Shown one piece after another: positions 14,901 to 57,680 of a DNA stretch of 64,000 bases. The DNA lies in the NCBI RefSeq assembly GCF_004349105.1, contig NZ_SMLB01000002.1, forward strand, positions 1-64,000. The letters run 5' to 3'. Made by a program: the position numbers and the translations under genes. The stretch comes from Jiangella aurantiaca (GTDB lineage Bacteria; Actinomycetota; Actinomycetes; Jiangellales; Jiangellaceae). Under the pieces are notes generated by a model. The model did not search any database, was not told the origin of the DNA, and was given only the letters and a program-made list of their open reading frames with translations. The first letter of the stretch is position 1, and every line of letters begins with the position of its first letter.

Positions 14901-16852
14901 GCGACGTCGACCTGTCCGAGGACCAGGAGGGCATCGTGCTGCGGGCGGCCAACCCGAACGCGCAGCCGGCGCAGGTGGAGATCTGGGCCGGCGGGCCCGG
15001 CGCCGACGGTGTCAAGGTCGGGACCGTCTCGGTGCCCCCGACCGGGCACGCCCAGACGTTCGTCAACGTCGGCGCGAGCCTGTCCGGGCTGCCCGGCGGC
15101 CGCGACGACCTGTACCTGGTGTTCCCCACCGCCGGTGTCCGGGTGGCCTGGCTGCGGCTCGGCGACGTCGACCCGGTCGAGAACGGCAAGGTGTCGGTGA
15201 CGTCGAACCACTTCAACAACAACATCGGCACCTCGCTGAGCCGCTTCCACGTCGAGGTGCCGGCCATCGTCCAGCAGCGGCAGGGCAGCCTCCTGCTCGA
15301 GGCGGGCATCGACGGCACCGGTGTCGTCGACGGCCCGGTCTCGTGGACGGTGACCACGCCGGACGGCGGCGCCACTCCCCTGGCCACGATCACCGCGTCC
15401 GGCCAGCTGACGGCGACGGGCTCGGGCGACGGCACCGTGCGCGCGGTGGCGACCTATGCCACCTCGTCCGGGCCGGTCACGGGCTGGCTCGATGTCGAGC
15501 TGCGCAACCAGGGTGTGCCGGCCGGGACCGCGGCGGAGGCCGTCATCATCAGGAGCGGCTGGGACTCCCGCCCGCCGGACATCTCGTGGGGACCGAACCA
15601 GTTCACGAAGTTCGGGGCGATCCACGAGTACCAGGGCTCGCTGCTGCTCAGCGCGGTCACCTATCCGTTCACCAACACGACCCGGCCCGTCACGTTCACG
15701 GTCGCCGACGAGGACGGCAACCCGAGCGAGCTGGCCACGATCGTCGACGAAGGCCCGGGCTTCGTGGAGGGTCAGACCTCCGGGAACAACAACCGGGCCC
15801 ACAACGCCACGCTGCGCGCCACCGGCGCCGGCGACGGTGAGGTGTACGTGACGGCCACGACGTCGAACGGCCTGTCCTACACGTCACGGATCGTGATCCA
15901 GAACCAGGAGACCCGTGACCCCTACGAGGGCCGCTACCAGGCCGAACTGTTCGACGCCTCCGGGAACGTCTCCGGTGCGGCATCGCACCTGCGGGCCGAC
16001 AACGTCCACGGCGACGACGTCGGACTCCAGCTGAACCGCATCCGCAACGGCGACTACGCCGTGTACCGCAACGTGGACTTCGGCGACCCCGAACTGCTCG
16101 ACCTCACGCTGCGCTACCTGAAGGTCTCCTCGGCACCCGCGACCGTCACGGTAATGGCCGATGACCCGGTCGAGGGCACCGAGCTGGGCACGGTCACGCT
16201 GACCGGGGAGCACGACCTGACCTCCGCGGAGGACTACGCGAACCCCGTCTACGAGTGGGCGGAGACCACCGTCGACCTCGAGCCGCTCGCGGGCGTGCAC
16301 GACGTATACCTCGTGTTCACGGTCGCGCCGGAGGTGCCGGACACCGACATCTCCAGCACGTACGGCGCGGTGGCCGGCTGGCTGGACCTCGGCATCAACT
16401 GGTTCACGTTCCGCGGCGTCCAGTGCGACCGGACCATCTCCGGACCGCACACCCGGCCGCTCGAGGTCGACTCGGGCGTGACCTGCCTGACCGAGGGCGC
16501 CAAGGTGGTCGGCCCGGTGACGGTGGCGGCCGGCGCCGGCCTACTGGCCTCGGGGGCGACGATCTCCGGGCCGGTCACGGCGACCGGCGCCGACGTCGTC
16601 GACGTGCGCGACACCCGGATCTCCGGCGGCGTCAGGGTCGAGGGCACCACCGACAGCGTGACGATCTCCGGGAACCGGATCACGGGACCGGTGAACCTGC
16701 ACGACAACACCACCGTGCCCAGGCCGATCGTGGTGTCCGGCAACAACATCAGCGGACCGGTGGCGTGCACGGGCAACGAACCCGCACCGGTCGACGGCGG
16801 CGTGCCGAACCAGGTGGTCGGCCGCGTCACCGGCCAATGCGCTGACCTCTGA
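11942..16852 (+). CDS. Giant secreted multidomain GH3 glycosidase
   Basis: 1636 aa. A signal peptide (hydrophobic core about residues 27-45) leads to a GH3 beta-glucosidase/xylosidase-like barrel (about 65-400); the probable nucleophile is Asp311 in FNVTDAAS, where most relatives have a VSDW-like motif. The second GH3 domain carries an inserted fascin/trefoil-like segment (LRSAAHDRYVAARG), then an FnIII-like domain. Two CBM6-like regions follow (about 935-1080 and 1330-1490) with Ig-like stretches between, and residues 1495-1636 form the Cys-containing GPV-repeat module. Roughly twice the usual GH3 length, which suggests attack on insoluble plant polymer. Substrate specificity is not readable. 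A strong terminator follows. Confidence 0.9.
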   Translation: MSPSPHPRRRPDEPSGLRWRLVRAARGLLAVLVVPLLAAAILQAPGAGAVDAAPPGGAAAAAQSGRYEYPFQDPSLSPDERVRDLIARLTLDEKVGLLHQFSGAIIRLGIPQFRTGTEGLHGLSWLGPATVFPQNTGLAATWNRELIADVGEVIGSETRAYNSVDARFNGVNVWGPVVDLARDPRSGRASESMGEDAFLSGVMADFMARGMQGQEDEFYYQTIPTLKHFAAYGQEAQRTSYSANASPRNLYEYYFRAFRYGIESGAANGVMTGYNLINGKPVMTMPELRSVVYDEWVPGGYSGGSFFNVTDAASPGNLSGSNAYYPNSTLGQAASMADSIGNGVAAMTPSDTDTPTTRRWIYEALARGMITEQDIDEVIYGVLLVRLHAGDLDVDPVNPYKRMNKRNALTTEANAAVAAQAAREQVVLLKNDDDILPLSSSSDVALAGPLGDENSTDFYAGTYPYTTLIKDEVESKLDGGAGALSFSRGVDLVALKVANGTGAPAGRFVVTGASAGAPLTGTGTSADDANAQFYLYDYGYNNMLLRSAAHDRYVAARGPGNTLVASADPPGYQSKNRATQQWFTDQNLGLVGQTGGLVSLRFVKGTGITAPNQAPNVFVDPASSNVLHNGGASSPNRQFELVTVRDGVADAVAKAEGAEVAVVAVGDQPHMTSRETFDRQSTPPGIGLAPQQEELIEAVAAANPNTVVVVVGSYPFDLRKVQANPNVKGIVYTTHAGQELGTAVADVLFGDYAPAGRLTQTWYPGLEVLPTISDYDIIKGERTYQYYDGEVLYPFGYGLTYTDFEHTDLSVSPSTVANTSDTRVTTVVTVRNTGDVASDEVVQLYATYQDAGESRVQHPIKTLVGFERVHLAPGESQEVSIDADLSELAIWDVEAGRFHVEPGTYRLTTATSSAEQDERAAGELEVTGTPLPVRDLGKVTPAYTFDDYSFTDQTTTGLRADVVPTSVHEDDSYGIEVRKAGAWVEYGDVDLSEDQEGIVLRAANPNAQPAQVEIWAGGPGADGVKVGTVSVPPTGHAQTFVNVGASLSGLPGGRDDLYLVFPTAGVRVAWLRLGDVDPVENGKVSVTSNHFNNNIGTSLSRFHVEVPAIVQQRQGSLLLEAGIDGTGVVDGPVSWTVTTPDGGATPLATITASGQLTATGSGDGTVRAVATYATSSGPVTGWLDVELRNQGVPAGTAAEAVIIRSGWDSRPPDISWGPNQFTKFGAIHEYQGSLLLSAVTYPFTNTTRPVTFTVADEDGNPSELATIVDEGPGFVEGQTSGNNNRAHNATLRATGAGDGEVYVTATTSNGLSYTSRIVIQNQETRDPYEGRYQAELFDASGNVSGAASHLRADNVHGDDVGLQLNRIRNGDYAVYRNVDFGDPELLDLTLRYLKVSSAPATVTVMADDPVEGTELGTVTLTGEHDLTSAEDYANPVYEWAETTVDLEPLAGVHDVYLVFTVAPEVPDTDISSTYGAVAGWLDLGINWFTFRGVQCDRTISGPHTRPLEVDSGVTCLTEGAKVVGPVTVAAGAGLLASGATISGPVTATGADVVDVRDTRISGGVRVEGTTDSVTISGNRITGPVNLHDNTTVPRPIVVSGNNISGPVACTGNEPAPVDGGVPNQVVGRVTGQCADL

Positions 16853-16947: not shown

Positions 16948-19900
16948 CATTCGGCCAACGCCACCATGTTCCCCCAGGCCGTGGGCCTGGGATCGACGTG
17001 GGACACCGAGCTACTGGAACAGGTGGGCCACGTCGTCGGCTTCGAGACCAGGTCGCGCAACGCCAACGCGCTGCGGGTCTGGGCACCCGTGCTGGACGTC
17101 GGGGTGAACCCGCTGGCGGGCCGGTTCGAGGAGACCTACGGCGAGGACCCGTTCCTGTGCGGCACGCTGGGCACGTCCTACGCGTTCGGCATCAAGGGCC
17201 GCGACCCCTTCTACATCCTGGCCAAGCCGGAGCTGAAGCACTTCTTCGCCTACAGCCACGAATGGAACCGGGCGCGGACGAGCAGCAGCATGAGCATCCG
17301 GTCGATGTACGAGTTCCACCTCGTCAGCTACCGGAAACCGGTCGAGGCCGGCGCCGTGCTCGGCGCGATGACGTCGTACAACATGGTCAATGGAGTGCCC
17401 ACGATCATCCACCCGATCACGCAGACGCTGCGCGCGGAGTGGGCGCCGGGCAACTTCATGTTCGTGCCCGGACGCGTGGGACACCTTCAACCTGTACAAC
17501 ACCAAGGGTGCGCCATACGCGTATCCGCTGGAGCGCCCCGCCGACCACGACACCTCCTACCCGGCCGGGCTGAGCCCCGACCCGGACGACGACGTCGCCG
17601 TCCGGAACACGACGGGTGCGCTGCTGCTGATCGCGGGGCTGACGAACTTCAACGACGGCAACGGCGCCGGCTTCAACGGCGCCCTCGCCGCCCGCAATGC
17701 CGTGCAGTCCGGGGTGCTCGGCGTGTCGATGGACCACGTCGACCGGGTGGTGCGCGACTGGCTCGCGTACAAGATCCGCACCGGTGCCCTGGACGGCGAG
17801 ACGAACCCCTACAACAGCTCCGTGATCCCGCCCAACCCGACCCCGAACCAGCTGGAGAGCAGCAAGGAGCTCGCTCTGCTGGCCGCGCGGGAGCAAATCG
17901 TCCTGCTCAAGAACCGCGACGGCGTGCTGACGCTCGATCCGCGGCAGGTGCGGACGCTGGCCGTCGTCGGGCCGCTCGCGGACGTCAACCTGCGCGACTA
18001 CTACAGCCCGCGCCCGCCGGCGCGAGTGACGCCGCTGCAGGGCATCGTGGACAAGCTCGGCGCGGACCGGGTCCGGTTCGACAACGGCACCGACGTCGTG
18101 GCGTGGCAGTCGGTGGCGCATGGGACGTTCGTGACGAACGGGACCGGCAACGCACCCATGACAGCGGCCTTCACACCGGCGAACGCACCGATCGAGCGCG
18201 GCTACCAGCTCGCCGACGGCTCCCACGTCGGTCCCGGGCAGGCGTTCCACGACTACGACTGGGGCTTCGACCAGCACATGTTCCGCAGCGTCGCCACCGG
18301 GAACTACGTCAACAGCAACCAGGCGATCGTGAACAACGCCACCGAGCTGCGGACCTCGCAGGCGACGATGGTCGACAACAACATCTGGAACATCAACGTC
18401 AACTTCCACCACCTGCGCAACGAGGACGGGACCCGCTCGATCTACGGCGTCGACTACATCCAGGACGACCAGTTCTACCGGTGGTTCACGAACGGCCGCT
18501 ACGTGCAGGCCGACTCAGACGTCCAGCGCACGCTGCGCCCAACCCTCACCTACGACGCGTTCGCCGCCGGGGACGAAACCGTGCGCGCGCCGGCCAAGTT
18601 CACCGAGCACCTGCTGGAGAGCGGCGCCGAGCGGGCTGCCGCCGCGGCGGGCGCTGCGGACTACGCCGTCGTGGTCATCGGCAACCACGTGCTGACCAAC
18701 GCCCGCGAGAGCCAGGACCGGCCGGGGCTCGCCCTGTCGCCACAGCACGCCGAGCTCGTCCGTGCCACCGCCGCGGCCCGCCCCGGCAGGACCGTCGTGG
18801 TGATCGTCAGTAGCTATCCGTTCGCCGTCAAGGAGATCGAGGACAACCCCGACGTCGCGCCCGTCCTGTACACGTCGCACGCCGGGCAGGCCGCCGGGAC
18901 GGCGCTCGCCGACGTCCTGTTCGGCGACTACGCGCCCGCCGGCCGGCTCAGCGCCACCTGGCTGGTCGACGAGAGTTCGCTGCCGGCCATGGGCCCGGAC
19001 GCCGACGGCCACGACGATCACTACACGGTCGACATGCTGGAGTACGACGTCATCTCCTCGAAGCGGACCTACCGGTACTCCGACGCGCCGCACGTCTACC
19101 CGTTCGGCCACGGGCTGACCTACACCGAGTTCCGCTACCACGACCTCTCCTACCGGCGGCTGGCGAACGCCGACGCGCCGTTCGAGGTCGGGTTCGGGCT
19201 GACCAACACCGGTGCGACGACGAGCGACGAGGTCGTCCAGGTGTACCTGCGTTCGCGGGACTCCGCCTACGGCGACCGGGTGCCGCGCAAGCAGCTCGTC
19301 GGCTTCCAGCGGGTCAAGGCGATCGCTCCCGGCGAGACCCGCCGGGTCAGCATCCGGGTCGATCCGCAGGACATGTTCGTGTGGGACGTCGTCCGCCAGC
19401 GCCCCGTCGTCGAGACCGGTGACCACGACCTCATGGTCGGCGCGTCGTCCGAGGACATCCGCCTCGATGGCCTGCTGTTCATCAAGGGCGAGCGCATCGG
19501 CGGCCTGGATCTGACGACCGTGCGCAACGCCTGGGAGCACTACACGATGAGCAGCGGTATCACGCACTGGGAGGTCTCCAAGCGCAACACCCTGCAGCGC
19601 GCCGGCGGCTACCACTCGGTCGGCTCCCGCCGCGACGGCGACTGGATCGGCTTCACCAAGGTGCTGCTGAACGGCGTCAACGGGATCGAACTGCGCGTCG
19701 CCACCACGACGCACGACTGGGCCGACCTGACCGGCGCCGCCATCGATATCCGCATCGACGCTCCGGACGGCCCGCGCCTGGGCACCGTCGCCGTCGGCCC
19801 GACGGACGGCCTGCAGGACTTCGTCACCCTGCGGGCGCCCCTGCCCGGCCGGCCGGGTACCCGGGGCAGCCACGACCTGTACCTGGTGTTCCGGTCCGGC

Positions 19901-19954
19901 GGCATCTACCTCGACACCGTCCAGCTGCTGCATGCACGACCACGTGGGGCGTAG
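16948..19954 (+). pseudogene. Second GH3 gene, 5'-truncated and frameshifted
   Basis: GH3 homology begins abruptly near GHSANATMFPQ, aligned with about residue 125 of the upstream GH3, so the signal peptide and first barrel strands are missing. Frame one runs to ...PGNFMFVP; one extra G at 17470-17471 (CCCGGACG where CCCGACG restores the frame) shifts it, and the text resumes as DAWDTFNLYN in the frame of the 17390-19954 ORF. That Asp aligns with the nucleophile region of the neighbour, so the shift falls on the catalytic centre. The rest keeps a fascin-like insertion, the second GH3 domain, FnIII and a terminal CBM6-like domain with good codon bias. Either a recent pseudogene or, for the shift alone, a sequencing error; the 5' truncation would remain. 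Confidence 0.85.
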
Positions 19955-28757: not shown

Positions 28758-28787
28758 TTGACCCAGGTTTGTGAATGCTCGTAACGT
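28758..28787 (+). promoter_or_regulatory. Promoter of GH53 gene
   Basis: TTGACC (28758-28763), 18 bp, TAACGT (28782-28787). A degenerate operator half, GTGAATGCTCGT (28771-28782), occupies the spacer. The GH53 start codon is about 105 bp downstream. Confidence 0.55.
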
Positions 28788-28893
28788 GACGGGCGTCACT
28801 GTGATCGTGCACAGTCCGCTCCGTCCACGCGGGCGGCATGGCCGATACAGAAGGCCGCCGCCGGCCTCCCGACTCACGAGACAAGGACGTCCC

Positions 28894-30828
28894 ATGAGAC
28901 CACGACGACATCGGCGCTGCCTGGCTACGGTTGGAGTCGCCCTCATGTGCGGCCTTGCATTGGCGCCCGCCACACCGTCGTCAGCGCTCCACGACCGTGC
29001 CTTCCTTCCGGTCGCGAGCGACCTCGCCGGCAAGCCATGGGTTTCGGTGACGACCACCAGCGCCGCCGAGACGGCGGAACTCGCCGTCGACGACGACCCC
29101 GATACGGCGTGGCTCTCGTCCCGCAAGCTGAAACAGTCACTCGCCCTGGACCTGGGCGGTGCGTACGACAACATCCGCAAGGTCGAGGTCGTCTTTCCGG
29201 ATGCGCACGGAACGTACCAGTACCTGGTCGAGGTCTCGTCGGACGGAGACACCTGGAACACCGTCGTCGACCGCTCGGACGCCGACCGCCCGGGACGAGG
29301 TGAGGAGCACCTCGTCACAGCGCCAGGCATCGCCTATCTGCGCGTGACGATCACGGACGCCTCTCCCGGCGCCGCGATCGGCATCAGTGAGCTCTCCGTC
29401 TGGAACTACCTGCGCGACGACCTCGTCCTCGGCGCGGACATCTCCTATGCCGATCAGAACACGGCCCAGGGCCTGACCTACTTCGTCGACGACCCCACCG
29501 ACGCCGCCGACATTCTGGAGACGGTGAGCGACGCCCGGATGGAATATGTCCGTCTCCGGGTCTTCAACGACCCGCGCGACGAGCGGACCGGCGCCTATCT
29601 CGACCCGGACTACCAGAGCCCGGAGCGAACCCTCGCCGTCGCCGATCGTGTCGTCCGCAACGGCATGGGCCTGGGCATCGACTTCCACTTCGCCGACTCG
29701 TGGGCCGACCCGAGCAAGCAGGCCAAGCCGACGGCGTGGCGCGAACTGCCCTTCGACAAGCTCACGCGAGCCGTGTACGACTACACCTACGAGAACGTCG
29801 AGAACCTCGTCGAGCAGGGCACGACGCCTGACAAGGTCGCCATCGGCAACGAGCTGATCAACGGCTTCATGTGGGGCGGCGAGCGGACCCAGCCGTGGTT
29901 CGACGCCTCGGCCTGGTGCGGCAGCTGCTACTTCAACACCGACCCGTCGTTCGTCTCGCAGCCCGGCGGCGGCATCTTGTGGGACTACTGGAGGTCCGAC
30001 GACGCGGCAGAGCAGGCCGCATACGACGCGGCGTGGGACCGTTTCACGACCCTGCAGGCTGCCGGCATCGCCGCCGTGCGCGACGTCTCGGCAGCCTACG
30101 GTGCGGACATCGCGGTCGAGACCCACGTCATCATCGACAACGGCCGCGTGGACAAGACACTCGAGTTCTGGGACCAGTACCTGACCCGCCTCAACGCCAA
30201 GGGGCAAGACATCGACGTCATGGCGCACTCGTACTACCCCGAGTGGCACGGGACGGCCGATCACTTCGAGGCCAACCTGCAGGCAGTCGCAGCCGCACAC
30301 CCCGGTTACGCGCTGGAGATCGCCGAGACGTCGCATCCGGCCAACGACTACGACGGCCGGCCGGTGCCCAATTCGCCGTACCCGAAGTCGCCCGTGGGAG
30401 CGGCGGAGGCCATCCAGCGGGTCGTCCAGATCGCCAACGACCTGCCTGACAATCGCGGCGTCGGGGTTCTCGTCTGGGAACCGGCGAACTATCAGGAGAT
30501 GATCGACTGGGACGACAGCGCCTGGCCGGCGGTGAAGTTCCACGACACGATCAAGATCTACGGCGACAGCGACGCAACCCATGTCTTGGAGGACACCGTC
30601 CACCGGTCGATCCGGTTCAAGGACCCGCTGCGCCTTCCGGACACCGTCGAGGTGCTGTCGATGGCGGACGGTTCGGTGGCGCCGGTGCCCGTCGCCTGGG
30701 AAGACGTCCCGTCGAGCGCGACAAGCACGCCGGGTCAACTGGTCGTGAACGGTACGACCACGTACGGTCCGGTCACTGCGGTCGTCGACGTTGTCCGCAG
30801 GCCCTTGGTGCCGGTCGTCGGGCGATGA
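28894..30828 (+). CDS. ganA: Secreted GH53 endo-beta-1,4-galactanase (copy 1)
   Basis: 644 aa from the ATG at 28894 (AAGGA 7 nt upstream). Signal peptide CLATVGVALMCGLALAPATPSSA, then an F5/8-type (CBM32-like) carbohydrate-binding domain to about residue 170. The GH53 barrel starts at DLVLGADISY; acid/base Glu320 in AIGNE, nucleophile Glu478 in EIAETS. A Big_4-like C-terminal domain closes the protein. It cuts beta-1,4-galactan side chains of pectin (type I arabinogalactan) outside the cell. Unlike copies 2 and 3 it lacks the GPV-repeat module, and its GWCGSCY-like insertion near 350 is its own. The gene converges on the MFS gene with a 1-bp gap. Confidence 0.93.
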   Translation: MRPRRHRRCLATVGVALMCGLALAPATPSSALHDRAFLPVASDLAGKPWVSVTTTSAAETAELAVDDDPDTAWLSSRKLKQSLALDLGGAYDNIRKVEVVFPDAHGTYQYLVEVSSDGDTWNTVVDRSDADRPGRGEEHLVTAPGIAYLRVTITDASPGAAIGISELSVWNYLRDDLVLGADISYADQNTAQGLTYFVDDPTDAADILETVSDARMEYVRLRVFNDPRDERTGAYLDPDYQSPERTLAVADRVVRNGMGLGIDFHFADSWADPSKQAKPTAWRELPFDKLTRAVYDYTYENVENLVEQGTTPDKVAIGNELINGFMWGGERTQPWFDASAWCGSCYFNTDPSFVSQPGGGILWDYWRSDDAAEQAAYDAAWDRFTTLQAAGIAAVRDVSAAYGADIAVETHVIIDNGRVDKTLEFWDQYLTRLNAKGQDIDVMAHSYYPEWHGTADHFEANLQAVAAAHPGYALEIAETSHPANDYDGRPVPNSPYPKSPVGAAEAIQRVVQIANDLPDNRGVGVLVWEPANYQEMIDWDDSAWPAVKFHDTIKIYGDSDATHVLEDTVHRSIRFKDPLRLPDTVEVLSMADGSVAPVPVAWEDVPSSATSTPGQLVVNGTTTYGPVTAVVDVVRRPLVPVVGR

Positions 30829-41883: not shown

Positions 41884-42023
41884 CCCCTCGGTGATGAGCC
41901 TCTGCCCGGTCACCGGGGAGAGGGATTTGCGGAGCCCGCCGATGTGCACATCGGGCCCGCTGGGCGCGACGGTCGATCACCCATCTCCTTCCAGATCAAT
42001 GACGACTCGAATTGGAGTGGATA

Positions 42024-44432
42024 ATGGCAAGGAACCGTCCGATCCGCACCTTTGTGAGTGTGGCCGCAGCACTAGCTGTAGGCGCCGCATCAGGCGGCGC
42101 CACTACTCCGGCGGCCGCACTATTCGGCGACGTCGAGATCAAGCCGATCGAGAGCAACATCGCGGAAAGACCGTGGGCTTCTGTCGAGGCAGGCAGCGGC
42201 GCCGATTCAAGCAGACTGGCGATCGACCAGAACGCCGATACGGCGTGGATTGCCGCAGACTCCGGTGCGCAGTGGCTGACGCTCGATCTCGGTGGAATCT
42301 ACGACAACATCCGCAAGGTCGAAGTCGTATTCCCGGACTCCGGCGCGGTTTACCAGTACGTGGTCGAGGCCTCGGGTGACGGCGACGACTGGACGGTGAT
42401 CGCCGACCGGTCGGACAACGCCGCCCCCGGCCGAGGCGGAGTCGAGCTGTTGACCCGTCCGGACACCCGCTACATCCGCGTGACGATCACAGGGACGTCG
42501 CCGGGGGCGACCGTCGGCGTGAGCGAGATCAGCGCCTACAACTACCTCCGCGACGATGTCGTGCTGGGTGCCGATCTGTCCTATATCGACGACTTCCAGA
42601 ACCGTCAGTACTGGGTACATCCGCTGGAGGAGGATCGCGGGGCCGGACCGTTCCTGCTGGACGTCGCCCAGGACCGCGGCATGGAGCTCGTTCGCCTGCG
42701 GATCTTCAACGAGCCCCGCAGTGAGTCATCGGGCAGTCCGGTCAATCCCCCGCGCCAGGGGCCGGAGCGCTCTCTCCAGTCGGCGAAATGGATCAAGGAG
42801 CGCGGGCTCGAACTGGCCATCGACTTCCACTACTCGGACTCGTGGGCAGACCCTGGCAAGCAGGCCAAGCCGCGAGCATGGGCCGAGCTCCCGTTCGACG
42901 AACTGGTGGATGCCGTCTACGGCTACACCCACGACTACATCCGCCAGCTGGTCGACCAGGGCACGACACCGGACAAGGTGGCGATCGGCAACGAGGTCAA
43001 CAACGGCTTCCTGTGGGGCAGCGAGGCCGCTGGCATGACCACCGGCCCGGTGGTCGGGACGGCGAACCCGGCCTATTTCCGCAACCAGCCCGGGATCTAC
43101 CAGTCCCAGCCCGGTGGTGGCCTGCTGTGGCCGTACATGAACTCGGACGACCCGGTCGAGCAGCGACTGTACTCGGAGGCCTTCGACCGCTTCGCCGAGT
43201 TGCAGGCCGCCGGTATCCGCGCCGTACGGGACGCCTCTCCGTCGACGCTGGTCGAGATCCACTCGCTGACCGGCAGCGGCATCGGCCCGGTCGTCGGCCC
43301 GGGTGTGGGCAACCAGGAGATCAGCGGCATCGAGAAGGCGATGGAGATGTGGAGCCAGACGCTTTCTCGCCTCGAGGACGAGCACGGTGTGTTCCCGGAC
43401 ATCATCGGCCAGTCCTACTACCCCGAGTACCACGGGACGATGGAGCAGCTCGAGCACAACCTGCACACCGTCGCCTCGGCATACCCAGAGGTTCAGCTCG
43501 TGGTCGCCGAGACGTCCTACCCGGCCTCGGGCGGTGGTGGCGCACCCATGCCGAACGCGATCTACCCGCGGACGATCCAAGGCCAGGCAGACGCCATCCA
43601 GCGGGTGTTCCAGGCCACCAACGACGTCATCAACAACCAGGGCAAGGGCGTCCTGACCTGGGAGCCGGCCAGCTGGCAATCGATGTTCCGGTCCGTGCCG
43701 GGCATGGCGAACACCTTCGAGCCGCACAGCTCGATCGACATCTACAACAAGAGCCGCGCCACGCACGTCATGGAGGACCGCGTCTATCGGACCGTGCTGG
43801 TCGGCGCCGAGCCGGCGCTGCCCGAGACGGTGCAGGTGCTGACCACCGCTGACGGCTCGATCGCCTCAGTCCCAGTCGACTGGGACGAGGTGTCTGCCGA
43901 CGGTACCGACACAACCGGTCGGGTCGCGGTCTCCGGCTCGACCGAGTTCGGCGGGGTCACCGCGCTCGTGGACGTCATCGACGACTACGTGACCCCGGCG
44001 TGCGGCGAGAGGGTGTCCGGGCGGCACCTCGGTCCGCTGACCATCGACTCCGGTGTCACCTGTATCGAGCGGGCGACGATCGCCGGGCCGGTCACCGTCG
44101 GTCCGGGCGCGTCGGTCGTGATCACCAACGGCCAGGTCACCGGCCCGGTGACCTCGCAGGGGGACGGCGTGGTCGTGGTCTGCGGCACTCGAGTGACGGG
44201 CCCCCTCACCATCCAGCGCGCATCATCGGTGACCCTTGGCAATCCCATCGTCGGCTGCGAGCCGAACACGGTGACCGGGCCGGTCTCTGTCAACGACGTG
44301 TCGGGGTGGAACGTGATCGCGGGCAACCGGATCACTGGTCCACTGGCCTGTTCAGGGAACGATCCAGCGCCGGTCAACAACGGCTCGATCAACACGGCTG
44401 GGCGCAAGAGTGGCCAGTGCGCCGGGCTCTAG
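42024..44432 (+). CDS. ganA: Secreted GH53 endo-beta-1,4-galactanase with GPV module (copy 2)
   Basis: 802 aa from the ATG at 42024 (GGAGTGG upstream). Signal peptide to about residue 36, F5/8-type binding domain (about 45-175), GH53 barrel from VVLGADLSYID, acid/base Glu324 in AIGNE, nucleophile Glu496 in VVAETS, Big_4-like domain (about 560-655). Residues 660-802 are the Cys-rich GPV-repeat module also found in the GH3 and in copy 3. Close to copy 3 in every domain except a longer loop TTGPVVGTANPAYF and the segment LTGSGIGPVVGPGV. Under paired IclR-type operators and followed by GH2. Confidence 0.93.
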   Translation: MARNRPIRTFVSVAAALAVGAASGGATTPAAALFGDVEIKPIESNIAERPWASVEAGSGADSSRLAIDQNADTAWIAADSGAQWLTLDLGGIYDNIRKVEVVFPDSGAVYQYVVEASGDGDDWTVIADRSDNAAPGRGGVELLTRPDTRYIRVTITGTSPGATVGVSEISAYNYLRDDVVLGADLSYIDDFQNRQYWVHPLEEDRGAGPFLLDVAQDRGMELVRLRIFNEPRSESSGSPVNPPRQGPERSLQSAKWIKERGLELAIDFHYSDSWADPGKQAKPRAWAELPFDELVDAVYGYTHDYIRQLVDQGTTPDKVAIGNEVNNGFLWGSEAAGMTTGPVVGTANPAYFRNQPGIYQSQPGGGLLWPYMNSDDPVEQRLYSEAFDRFAELQAAGIRAVRDASPSTLVEIHSLTGSGIGPVVGPGVGNQEISGIEKAMEMWSQTLSRLEDEHGVFPDIIGQSYYPEYHGTMEQLEHNLHTVASAYPEVQLVVAETSYPASGGGGAPMPNAIYPRTIQGQADAIQRVFQATNDVINNQGKGVLTWEPASWQSMFRSVPGMANTFEPHSSIDIYNKSRATHVMEDRVYRTVLVGAEPALPETVQVLTTADGSIASVPVDWDEVSADGTDTTGRVAVSGSTEFGGVTALVDVIDDYVTPACGERVSGRHLGPLTIDSGVTCIERATIAGPVTVGPGASVVITNGQVTGPVTSQGDGVVVVCGTRVTGPLTIQRASSVTLGNPIVGCEPNTVTGPVSVNDVSGWNVIAGNRITGPLACSGNDPAPVNNGSINTAGRKSGQCAGL

Positions 44433-55017: not shown

Positions 55018-57387
55018 CTACAGGTCGCGGCACTGTGCCGACTTCGGGCCGCTCACCGTGTTCGGAGCGCCGTTGTTCACCGGCGCCTCGGCGTTTCCGC
55101 TGCACATCAGCGGGCCGTCGATCCTGTTCCCGGCGATCACGTTCCACCAGTCCGTCCCGGTCACCGTGACCGGGCCGGTGATGGTGTTCGGAGCGCAGTC
55201 GAGCACCGGGTTGCCGATCGTCACCGATGAGGTCCCGGACGACGTCACCGGACCGTCGATCCGGCTGCCGCAGATCACGACCGCGGCCGCGTCGTCGGCC
55301 CGCACCGGACCGGCGATGGTCGCGCCGTCGACCTGGAGCGAAGCGCCGGCACGCACCGACACCGGGCCGGACACCGTCGTTCCGTCCAGGCAGGTCACGC
55401 CCTCGGTCGCCGCCAGCTGCCCGGCGTACCGGCCGGAGATCACGCGGTCACAGGCGAGGCCGGCATACGCGTCGACCACGTCGACCTGCGCCGTCACCGA
55501 CCCGAACTCGGTCGAACCCTGGACCGTGAGCCGGCCGGCCGCGTCGGTGCCGCCGTCCGGCACCGGCTCCCACTCCACGGGCACCGTCTCGGTCGAGCCG
55601 TCGGCCGTGGTCAACACCCGTACCGAGTCCGGCAGCTCCACCTCGTCGCCGACCAGCGCGGCCGAGTACACGGTGTCCTCCACGACCTGGGTCGCGCGGC
55701 TCTTCGTGAAGATGTCGATCGACGCGTTCGGCTGCCACGTGCGCGTCATCCCGGGCACGGATGTGAACAGGGATTGCCACCGCGCCGGCTCCCAGGCCAG
55801 CACGCCCAGTCCCTGGTTGTTCGGGATGTCGTTGGCGATCTGGAACACCCGCTGGAGGGCGTCGGCCTGGCCCTGGATGGTGCGCGGGTACGGCGAGTTC
55901 GGCATGGGGGTTCCGCCGCCGCCCGACGCCGGGTACGAGGTCTCCGCGATGTCGATCTTGTAGCCCGGGTGTGCCGCGGCCACGGCGTTGACGTTGAACT
56001 CGTAGTGGTCCTGTGTCCCGTGGTACTGCGGGTAGTACGAGTGGGCGAGGACGTCCGGGTCGGCGCCCTTGGCGTTCACCCTGGTCAGGTACTGGTTCCA
56101 GAACTCGAGCGTCTTGTCGAGCTGACCGTTGTCGATGATGATGTGGGTCTCGACCTTGACGTCCTCGCCGTGGGCCGCCGACACGTCGCGGACCGCGCGA
56201 ATCCCCGCCGCGGACAGCGTGGTGAACCGGTCCCACGCCTCGTCGTACAGCCGCTTCTCCTCCGGGTCGTCGGAGCCCCAGTAGTTCCAGAGCAGGCCAC
56301 CGCCGGGCTGCGACTGGTAGATGTGAGCCTGGTTCCGGAAGTACGCCGGGTTGGTGGCACCGATGTGGGCGTTCTCGCTGCCGTACATGAAGCCGTTGAG
56401 GATCTCGTTGCCGATGGCCACCTTGTCCGGCGTGGTGCCCTGCTCGATCAGCCGCTCGATGTAGTCGTAGGTGTAGTCGTAGACCGCCTGGGCCAGGTCG
56501 GGGAACTCCAGCTCCGCCCATGCCCGAGGCTTCGGCTGCTTGATCGGGTCGGCCCACGAGTCCGCATAGTGGAAGTCGATGCCGAGCCCCATGTCACGCT
56601 CGGCGATCCACTTGGCCACCTCGGCCGACCGATCCGGGCCCTGGTACGGAACGGCCGAGGGGTTGCCGCTGCCCTCGCTGCGCGGCTCGTTCCAGATCCG
56701 CAGCCGGATGTACTCGAAGCCACGGTCCTTCAGCACGTCCAGCAGGTGAGGTCCCGCGCCTCGGTCCGCCGCGAGCGGACTCACCCAGTAATTCCGTCCT
56801 TCCGCGACGTCGTTGTCGACCCACGAGGCGTCGGCGCCGAGAACGACGTCCTCGCGCAGGTAGTTGTAGACACCGAGCTCGCTGATTCCGACGGTCGCGC
56901 CCGGCGACGCTCCCGTGACGGTGACGCGCACGTACCTCGTCCCCGGCTGGGTGAAGAGGTCGACCGATCCGCGGCCGGGCTCGTGATCGGCCGAGTGGTC
57001 GGCGATGACGGTCCAGCTCTGACCGTCCGCGGAGGACTCGATGACGTACTGGTAGACGGCGCCGGGATCCGGGAAGACCACCCGGACCTTCCTGACGTTG
57101 TCGTAGGCGCCGCCGAGGTCGAGCGTCAGCCACTGGCGCGCGGACGCGTCGTCGGCGATCCATGCGGTCTGGTCGTCCTGGTCGATCGCCAGGCCGGCGG
57201 TGGGTGCGCCGCTGCTGACGTCGACGCTCGCCCAGGATTTCGCGCTGATGTTGCTCTCGATCGGCGAGATCTCGGCATCGCCGAAGATCGCGGAAGCCGG
57301 GGCGACCGCCCCGAGCGCCGCCGCGCCGCATGCCAGAGCGGCGGCGGTGGTGATGGCGAGTGTCGTGCGGATGGGGTGCTTACGCAT
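55018..57387 (-). CDS. ganA: Secreted GH53 endo-beta-1,4-galactanase with GPV module (copy 3)
   Basis: 789 aa from the ATG at 57387 (GAGGAG upstream); the longer ORF start lies in the leader. Signal peptide to about residue 34, F5/8-type domain, GH53 barrel from VVLGADASWVD, acid/base Glu328 in AIGNE, nucleophile Glu482 in DIAETS, Big_4-like domain, and the GPV-repeat module at 646-789. First gene of the complete galactan operon (GH53, importer, LacI, GH42). Same domain order as copy 2 but under a different promoter and repressor type. Confidence 0.93.
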   Translation of the reverse strand: MRKHPIRTTLAITTAAALACGAAALGAVAPASAIFGDAEISPIESNISAKSWASVDVSSGAPTAGLAIDQDDQTAWIADDASARQWLTLDLGGAYDNVRKVRVVFPDPGAVYQYVIESSADGQSWTVIADHSADHEPGRGSVDLFTQPGTRYVRVTVTGASPGATVGISELGVYNYLREDVVLGADASWVDNDVAEGRNYWVSPLAADRGAGPHLLDVLKDRGFEYIRLRIWNEPRSEGSGNPSAVPYQGPDRSAEVAKWIAERDMGLGIDFHYADSWADPIKQPKPRAWAELEFPDLAQAVYDYTYDYIERLIEQGTTPDKVAIGNEILNGFMYGSENAHIGATNPAYFRNQAHIYQSQPGGGLLWNYWGSDDPEEKRLYDEAWDRFTTLSAAGIRAVRDVSAAHGEDVKVETHIIIDNGQLDKTLEFWNQYLTRVNAKGADPDVLAHSYYPQYHGTQDHYEFNVNAVAAAHPGYKIDIAETSYPASGGGGTPMPNSPYPRTIQGQADALQRVFQIANDIPNNQGLGVLAWEPARWQSLFTSVPGMTRTWQPNASIDIFTKSRATQVVEDTVYSAALVGDEVELPDSVRVLTTADGSTETVPVEWEPVPDGGTDAAGRLTVQGSTEFGSVTAQVDVVDAYAGLACDRVISGRYAGQLAATEGVTCLDGTTVSGPVSVRAGASLQVDGATIAGPVRADDAAAVVICGSRIDGPVTSSGTSSVTIGNPVLDCAPNTITGPVTVTGTDWWNVIAGNRIDGPLMCSGNAEAPVNNGAPNTVSGPKSAQCRDL

Positions 57388-57680
57388 CGTTGCTTGCTCC
57401 TCATCTCTGCCACTGAGTGAATGAGACCGACTGCCGCGATCCGGCGCGAGAACGCCGGGCGGACCTGGACAGCGCAGCTGTTGTCCGACGGCTGAGGTCG
57501 GCCGTCGGCGGGGCCGTCGTCTGGTTCCTGCACTCTGCGGGTGTCGCCCGCCTGAGAAGGAACTCGTCGCATGGGTGCTCCCACGGCCAGCGCCGGCAGG
57601 GCGATCCGGCGCGGGCACGTCACGGCACGTCGCCCAAGACGCGCCATGAGCCTTCCGAACAGGGAGACTCTTCCCTTGTG

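Follow-up and report, generated by a model that had tools for sequence, protein, structure and literature searches.

Bactofilins (PF04519) are short beta-solenoids of about 100–140 residues with three strands per turn and Gly-rich turns and are described as cytoskeletal, cytoplasmic-membrane-associated and polymerising proteins (PMC12448750). The genome of Jiangella aurantiaca encodes a C-terminal module of the same general build, present three times in the 64,000-nucleotide stretch analysed here and referred to as the window (assembly GCF_004349105.1, contig NZ_SMLB01000002.1, positions 1 to 64,000, forward strand). In contrast to bactofilins, the module is attached to exported proteins, is probably stapled by cysteines and is almost free of aromatic residues. 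Its coil is shared with the solved right-handed parallel beta-helices, including pectate lyases, RbmB, the CAP CARP domain and ice-binding proteins, but the module has no match to these structures at E ≤ 0.001 and no catalytic residues are implied for it. The PIC/HAP1/IgA0 second beta-solenoid repeat region (PF24078), a passenger stem of autotransporters of Gram-negative bacteria, gives the best Pfam E-value of any module member (4.4e-7, with 6 of 76 members at E ≤ 0.01); unlike the module, it is not known to carry a fixed pair of Cys at each end.

In its distribution the module is comparable to LPXTG signals, GlyGly-CTERM, the type IX CTD and dockerins, in which numerous unrelated exported proteins encoded by one genome share a C-terminal module. 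It differs from these systems by its fold, by the absence of a sortase motif or transmembrane tail, and by the existence of internal and free-standing forms. Carbohydrate-binding modules are likewise accessory domains of glycosidases, but the Jiangella module lacks conserved aromatics and is linked to peptidases and nucleases as well.

Table 1. Positions of the C-terminal modules, their conserved ends and the relevant host genes in the window
Feature	Position	Strand	Remarks
C-terminal beta-solenoid module, GH3 protein	16424..16849	+	142 aa; 4 Cys: C1, C21, C115, C139
C-terminal module, GH53 copy 2	44001..44429	+	143 aa; 6 Cys
C-terminal module, GH53 copy 3	55021..55452	-	144 aa; 6 Cys
Module N-terminal end, conserved, C1 to C21	16424..16486	+	One rung apart; putative disulfide staple
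Module C-terminal end, conserved, C115 to C139, then three residues and stop	16766..16840	+	One rung apart; putative staple
Host gene, secreted GH3 enzyme, 1636 aa	11942..16852	+	Pfam: GH3 N and C domains, Fn3-like, CBM6 matches; C-terminal module
Host gene, secreted GH53 endo-beta-1,4-galactanase copy 2	42012..44432	+	F5/8 C, GH53, Big_4, module
Host gene, secreted GH53 copy 3	55018..57618	-	F5/8 C, GH53, Big_4, module
GH53 copy 1, without module	28771..30828	+	F5/8 C, GH53, Big_4 in the same order

The initial annotation had proposed that the last ~143 residues of the GH3 enzyme and of two GH53 galactanases are homologous, and this is confirmed, with the segments lying where they had been placed (Table 1). 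Their pairwise identities are 44%, 47% and 52% over the full length (BLASTP E-values from 4e-31 to 3e-49 for the three pairs), and the alignment scores exceed those of 1000 same-composition shuffles by 28–42 SD. The GPV-type turns described about every 20 residues recur with an observed period of 19–23 residues, and both motifs described earlier, GN(R/N)I(T/S/D)GP and (A/M)C(T/S)GN, are found in the window modules. The GH3 module carries near-invariant Gly residues at positions 30, 49, 68, 88, 111 and 133. Two details of the original description had to be corrected: in the start motif, given as Cys-x(20-22)-GVTC, the spacer comprises 16 residues, the Cys of GVTC lying 20 positions after Cys1, and after the terminal QC come three residues (ADL, AGL or RDL) rather than two. 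Relative to the GH3 module, those of GH53 copies 2 and 3 contain one additional Cys pair.

The AlphaFold2 model of the GH3 module, based on 76 aligned modules, has a mean pLDDT of 98.3 and a pTM of 0.91, with every residue at 90 or above, and is all beta with three short strands per rung. A free-standing module protein encoded elsewhere in the genome yields the same pattern (pLDDT 97.9; alignment led by its own clade). The suggestion of a right-handed beta-solenoid closed by disulfides thus finds support as regards the repeat fold and a disulfide-compatible stacking of cysteines, 4 or 6 of which are present in 102 of the 106 modules; the handedness is less direct, being likely right-handed because most of the recognisable fold neighbours are parallel beta-helices of that hand. 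A fold search with both models returned no PDB or viral match at E ≤ 0.001, the best neighbours being RbmB (9ozl, TMq 0.53) and pectate lyase A (1jta, TMq 0.52).

Cys1, Cys21, Cys115 and Cys139 show little or no variation. A distance of 19–21 residues separates the first two Cys in 99 of 99 modules and one of mostly 22–24 the last two; since the cysteines of each end pair are one rung apart, a disulfide staple pairing neighbouring rungs is probably present at each end. Module length ranges from 115 to 170 aa, and the number of rungs varies. The better conservation of the ends (1.96 and 2.08 bits, versus 1.44 in the middle), together with this variable rung number, suggests that the ends matter and that the middle serves as a spacer. 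Aromatic residues (F/W/Y) make up 1.25% of the module versus 8.9% of the remainder of the hosts; 25 of the 106 modules have none at all, and no aromatic column is conserved.

Consistent with the initial remark that no named family was known for the module, the profile search of the window modules revealed no Pfam or NCBIfam model at cut-off, and the module is apparently uncatalogued in these libraries. No description of it was found in the literature searched, which is weak evidence, as subscription journals lie mostly outside that literature. A Pfam scan of the 76 members gave mainly generic solenoid and repeat families, each matched by few members, such as DUF5649 (6 of 76); the PF24078 similarity, alongside which the Hap passenger (3syj) gave a weak PDB hit (E 0.007), also reads as a generic solenoid match, and none of the three window modules matches this family at E ≤ 1. 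No known CBM family was detected in the module by Pfam.

The comparison with bactofilin-like folds, also made in the initial annotation, failed at the sequence level. Bactofilins are right-handed triangular beta-helices that assemble into non-polar filaments. PF04519 scores 12.4 and 14.4 bits against the window modules (E 0.047 and 0.19), below its gathering score of 27.9 bits, and is matched at E ≤ 0.01 by 4 of the 76 members (best E 0.0017). Alignment by hhalign to 20 actinobacterial bactofilins gave a probability of 9.8% over 10 columns, with reversed controls at 2.4% and 1.7%. No bactofilin was found in the J. aurantiaca genome at E ≤ 1e-4, nor among the 50 matches listed of the 151 fold matches at E ≤ 10. 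Membership in the bactofilins was rejected on the HMM score and the profile–profile tests with their reversed controls, and the signal-peptide-like N-termini of the hosts argue against a bactofilin-style cytoplasmic site. The module is solenoid-like and is not shown to be a bactofilin; it belongs with the accessory domains found at the C-terminus of exported enzymes, and its predicted fold is a beta-solenoid.

The host proteins were surveyed in 112 distinct ORFs with a stop codon, read from the fetched loci, and make up over twenty groups that are unrelated to one another. Those named by Pfam include the glycosidases GH3, GH43, GH53 and GH92, peptidases of types M64 and S8, an Exo_endo_phos protein with a lamin-tail domain, a ParB-like nuclease, BNR (sialidase-like) proteins, LVIVD and regulator-type propellers, and Ig-repeat proteins; CBM6, F5/8 or ricin domains are present in some of the hosts as well. 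A signal-peptide-like N-terminus was recognised in 106 of the 112 hosts by a simple hydropathy rule, which is a heuristic and not SignalP. Heuristic scans of the same hosts found no LPXTG motif and no terminal transmembrane segment or basic tail after the module. The module is a C-terminal region common to many unrelated exported proteins of one genome. It ends within 8 residues of the stop codon in 104 of the 112 proteins, and exactly three residues follow the last Cys in 74 of 99 modules. Most members end in C-x-x-L, with the variants QCREA, QCRW, or QC at the very end. Two propeller proteins (L130 and L131) contain internal modules, so the module is not a strictly terminal signal. In distant free-standing relatives it is followed by an SLH domain (L142, Pfam) or, according to labels assigned by eye, by CW_binding_2-like (L141, L147) or RTX-like (L152) repeats.

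A module tree of 106 rows, built from a short alignment and leaving many forks open, separates 14 free-standing from 92 fused modules by a fully supported branch. The 18 partner classes require at least 20 changes on this tree, which indicates that the module has moved between hosts.

The whole J. aurantiaca genome (6.6 Mb) encodes about 11 modules in total, about 8 protein copies having been detected beyond the three in the window by a search with a profile of the latter; some copies were recovered as two fragments. The additional hosts are a GH43 enzyme with a ricin domain, three beta-propeller proteins of one cluster, an M64-type peptidase and a protein with F5/8-type C matches. The search also recovered the free-standing secreted module protein (164 aa) and a longer relative (320 aa). 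The latter (L021:6358-7320; contig C58, about 78.4-79.3 kb) has a solenoid with additional rungs, plus an acidic, Ala-rich tail that is not part of it, and frames of this kind turn up repeatedly in Jiangellaceae. At L017 (contig C16 of the same genome, 13-32 kb), L113 and L115, three to four secreted beta-propeller proteins are encoded side by side, each with a module at its end and with matches only to DUF6923 and Reg_prop. The gene adjoining the module-bearing GH43 gene (L016:8531-10081, minus strand) is GH51 arabinofuranosidase-like by its N-terminus and is followed by transporter-like genes.

The nearest named genomes belong to Jiangella (J. anatolica, L052, module 89%). Within Jiangellaceae, module matches occur in 20 of 22 genomes, at 2–18 places each. 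Matches were found in at least 33 of 397 genomes of a phylum sample and in at least 80 of 395 of a class sample, the 20 Jiangellaceae genomes being among the latter; both counts are lower bounds, since at most 10 candidates were scored per genome. A phage origin was rejected, there being no phage match (best PHROGs E-value 0.011), as was a plasmid origin, the lone "plasmid" match lying in a Nonomuraea record of 11.9 Mb, evidently chromosomal.

The full-length form of the free-standing module protein (L020:6375-6869) is present in 9 of 12 Jiangella genomes, at 85–93% identity to the J. aurantiaca copy, and is absent from all other members of the family that carry fused modules. The net charge of the free-standing Jiangella copies is +10 and +13 (two copies), versus a mean of -4.7 for fused modules. 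Charge complementarity between the two forms was considered and set aside because it is confounded with lineage, the acidic standalone proteins including those with SLH and CW_binding_2-like domains. The standalone module was also rejected as an obligatory dock, since it is absent from most non-Jiangella relatives with fused modules.

Two of the three GH53 genes of the window carry the module, while GH53 copy 1, with 48–54% identity to copies 2 and 3, ends without it. Its layout differs from theirs mainly by the missing module, and it is a natural minus-module comparison for them. For copy 2 the TTG of the longest frame was used as the start, the ATG of MARNRP being a possible alternative, and copy 3 probably starts some 77 codons into its longest frame, at the ATG of MRKHPIRTTL. 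The three genes are located near GH2 and GH42 genes at 28771-57618, a segment that also contains LacI-type regulator-like and transporter-like genes, as judged by eye from their N-termini, and that resembles a region for galactan use in which the galactanases are redundant. A second GH3 gene (16966-19954, plus strand) is apparently split across two frames: ORF 16966-18813 has a GH3 N-terminal domain match within its first 159 residues, and ORF 17390-19954 comprises GH3_C, Fn3-like and CBM6 matches. A frameshift near 17.4 kb, real or due to an assembly error, is possible.

With a probability of roughly 0.4, the module is read here as a generic extracellular retention or assembly tail, an uncatalogued mobile C-terminal unit of exported actinobacterial proteins. 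It would form a short rod of about six rungs with three strands each, probably right-handed and disulfide-stapled at both ends. Export would be driven by the signal peptides predicted for nearly all hosts, with the disulfides formed outside the cell. The tail would then keep secreted enzymes of unrelated families at the cell or close to it by docking its conserved end or ends to other solenoid modules or to a component of the envelope, and the retained enzymes would free galactan and arabinan fragments beside the transporters. A generic tail is favoured because of the promiscuous partners, the terminal position and the conserved ends; conserved ends and a variable number of rungs fit retention since the ends would do the work. 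A substrate-specific role would be redundant, given the non-carbohydrate hosts and those with CBM6, F5/8 or ricin domains of their own. The existence of GH53 copy 1 without the module, the several copies per genome throughout Jiangellaceae and the distant standalone relatives joined to wall-type domains (SLH, CW_binding_2-like) were also counted for retention. In these fusions wall binding is provided by the SLH or CW_binding_2-like domains and does not require the module. No dedicated anchoring partner was found.

The main rival is a stabilising end cap, in which a stapled, protease-resistant solenoid shields the C-terminus or aids the folding of secreted multidomain enzymes and has no partner. 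The paired cysteines at both ends, the exact terminal position and the promiscuous partners would suit such a cap, and conserved ends with a variable middle are likewise expected from capping of a repeat protein. Nevertheless, this role appears rather unlikely: GH53 copy 1, a close homologue, manages without the module, the secreted free-standing protein has nothing to protect and is predicted to fold alone, and the conserved, putatively surface-exposed residues N118, N129, Q138 and H9 exceed the needs of a cap.

Binding of a polysaccharide or cell-wall polymer through a flat face of the solenoid, as an unrecognised carbohydrate-binding module, is less probable again. Beta-solenoid faces are able to bind long polymers, many hosts are glycosidases, and ladders of Thr, Ser and Asn run along the strands. 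Against this stand the scarcity of aromatics without any conserved column, the peptidases and nucleases among the partners, and the frequent presence of CBMs in the hosts themselves. Many carbohydrate-binding modules, although not all, expose a platform of aromatic residues. A classical CBM is disfavoured, since the module is aromatic-poor and occurs on peptidases and nucleases as well as on glycosidases; it may nevertheless bind by way of ladders of Asn, Asp or Thr, or recognise a wall polymer of general occurrence.

In an extracellular counterpart of the bactofilin polymers, modules would stack end to end, also with the free-standing form, into an enzyme-bearing fibre. This is possible, the positive evidence for it being the general fold type, but improbable. 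The weak bactofilin-like Pfam scores, the conserved ends and the basic free-standing copies beside mainly acidic fused modules speak for it. However, profile homology to bactofilins is absent, and the module ends consist of Cys pairs and a Pro/Asn-rich turn. Bactofilins use a hydrophobic end residue, F130 in BacA (PMC12448750), and this residue has no aromatic counterpart in the module. Moreover, fused modules are present where there is no standalone copy, and the charge contrast follows lineage. Slightly more doubtful still is a broader arrangement, in which the disulfide-stapled solenoid tails of dozens of unrelated hydrolases would join by their ends, either to one another or to solenoids that are free-standing or wall-linked (the SLH and CW_binding_2-like fusions), into an enzyme-bearing surface fibre; such a secreted Gram-positive scaffold would be unlike cellulosomes or sortase display.

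A C-terminal targeting domain for an export or processing machine, comparable to the type IX CTD or GlyGly-CTERM, is very improbable despite the terminal C-x-x-L of most members and a distribution over many proteins of one genome like that which led to the discovery of GlyGly-CTERM (PMC3237569), since no transmembrane or basic tail follows the module, the hosts already carry Sec-type signal peptides and have no outer membrane to cross, some copies are internal, and the terminal residues vary.

Naming the module would fill a blank left by Pfam and NCBIfam on many secreted actinobacterial enzymes and would provide a handle on how hydrolases stay close to the cell without sortase signals. GH53 copy 1, which lacks the module, and copies 2 and 3, which carry it, form a natural pair in which retention is directly testable. 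If the module does retain enzymes, it would be a ready-made display tag.
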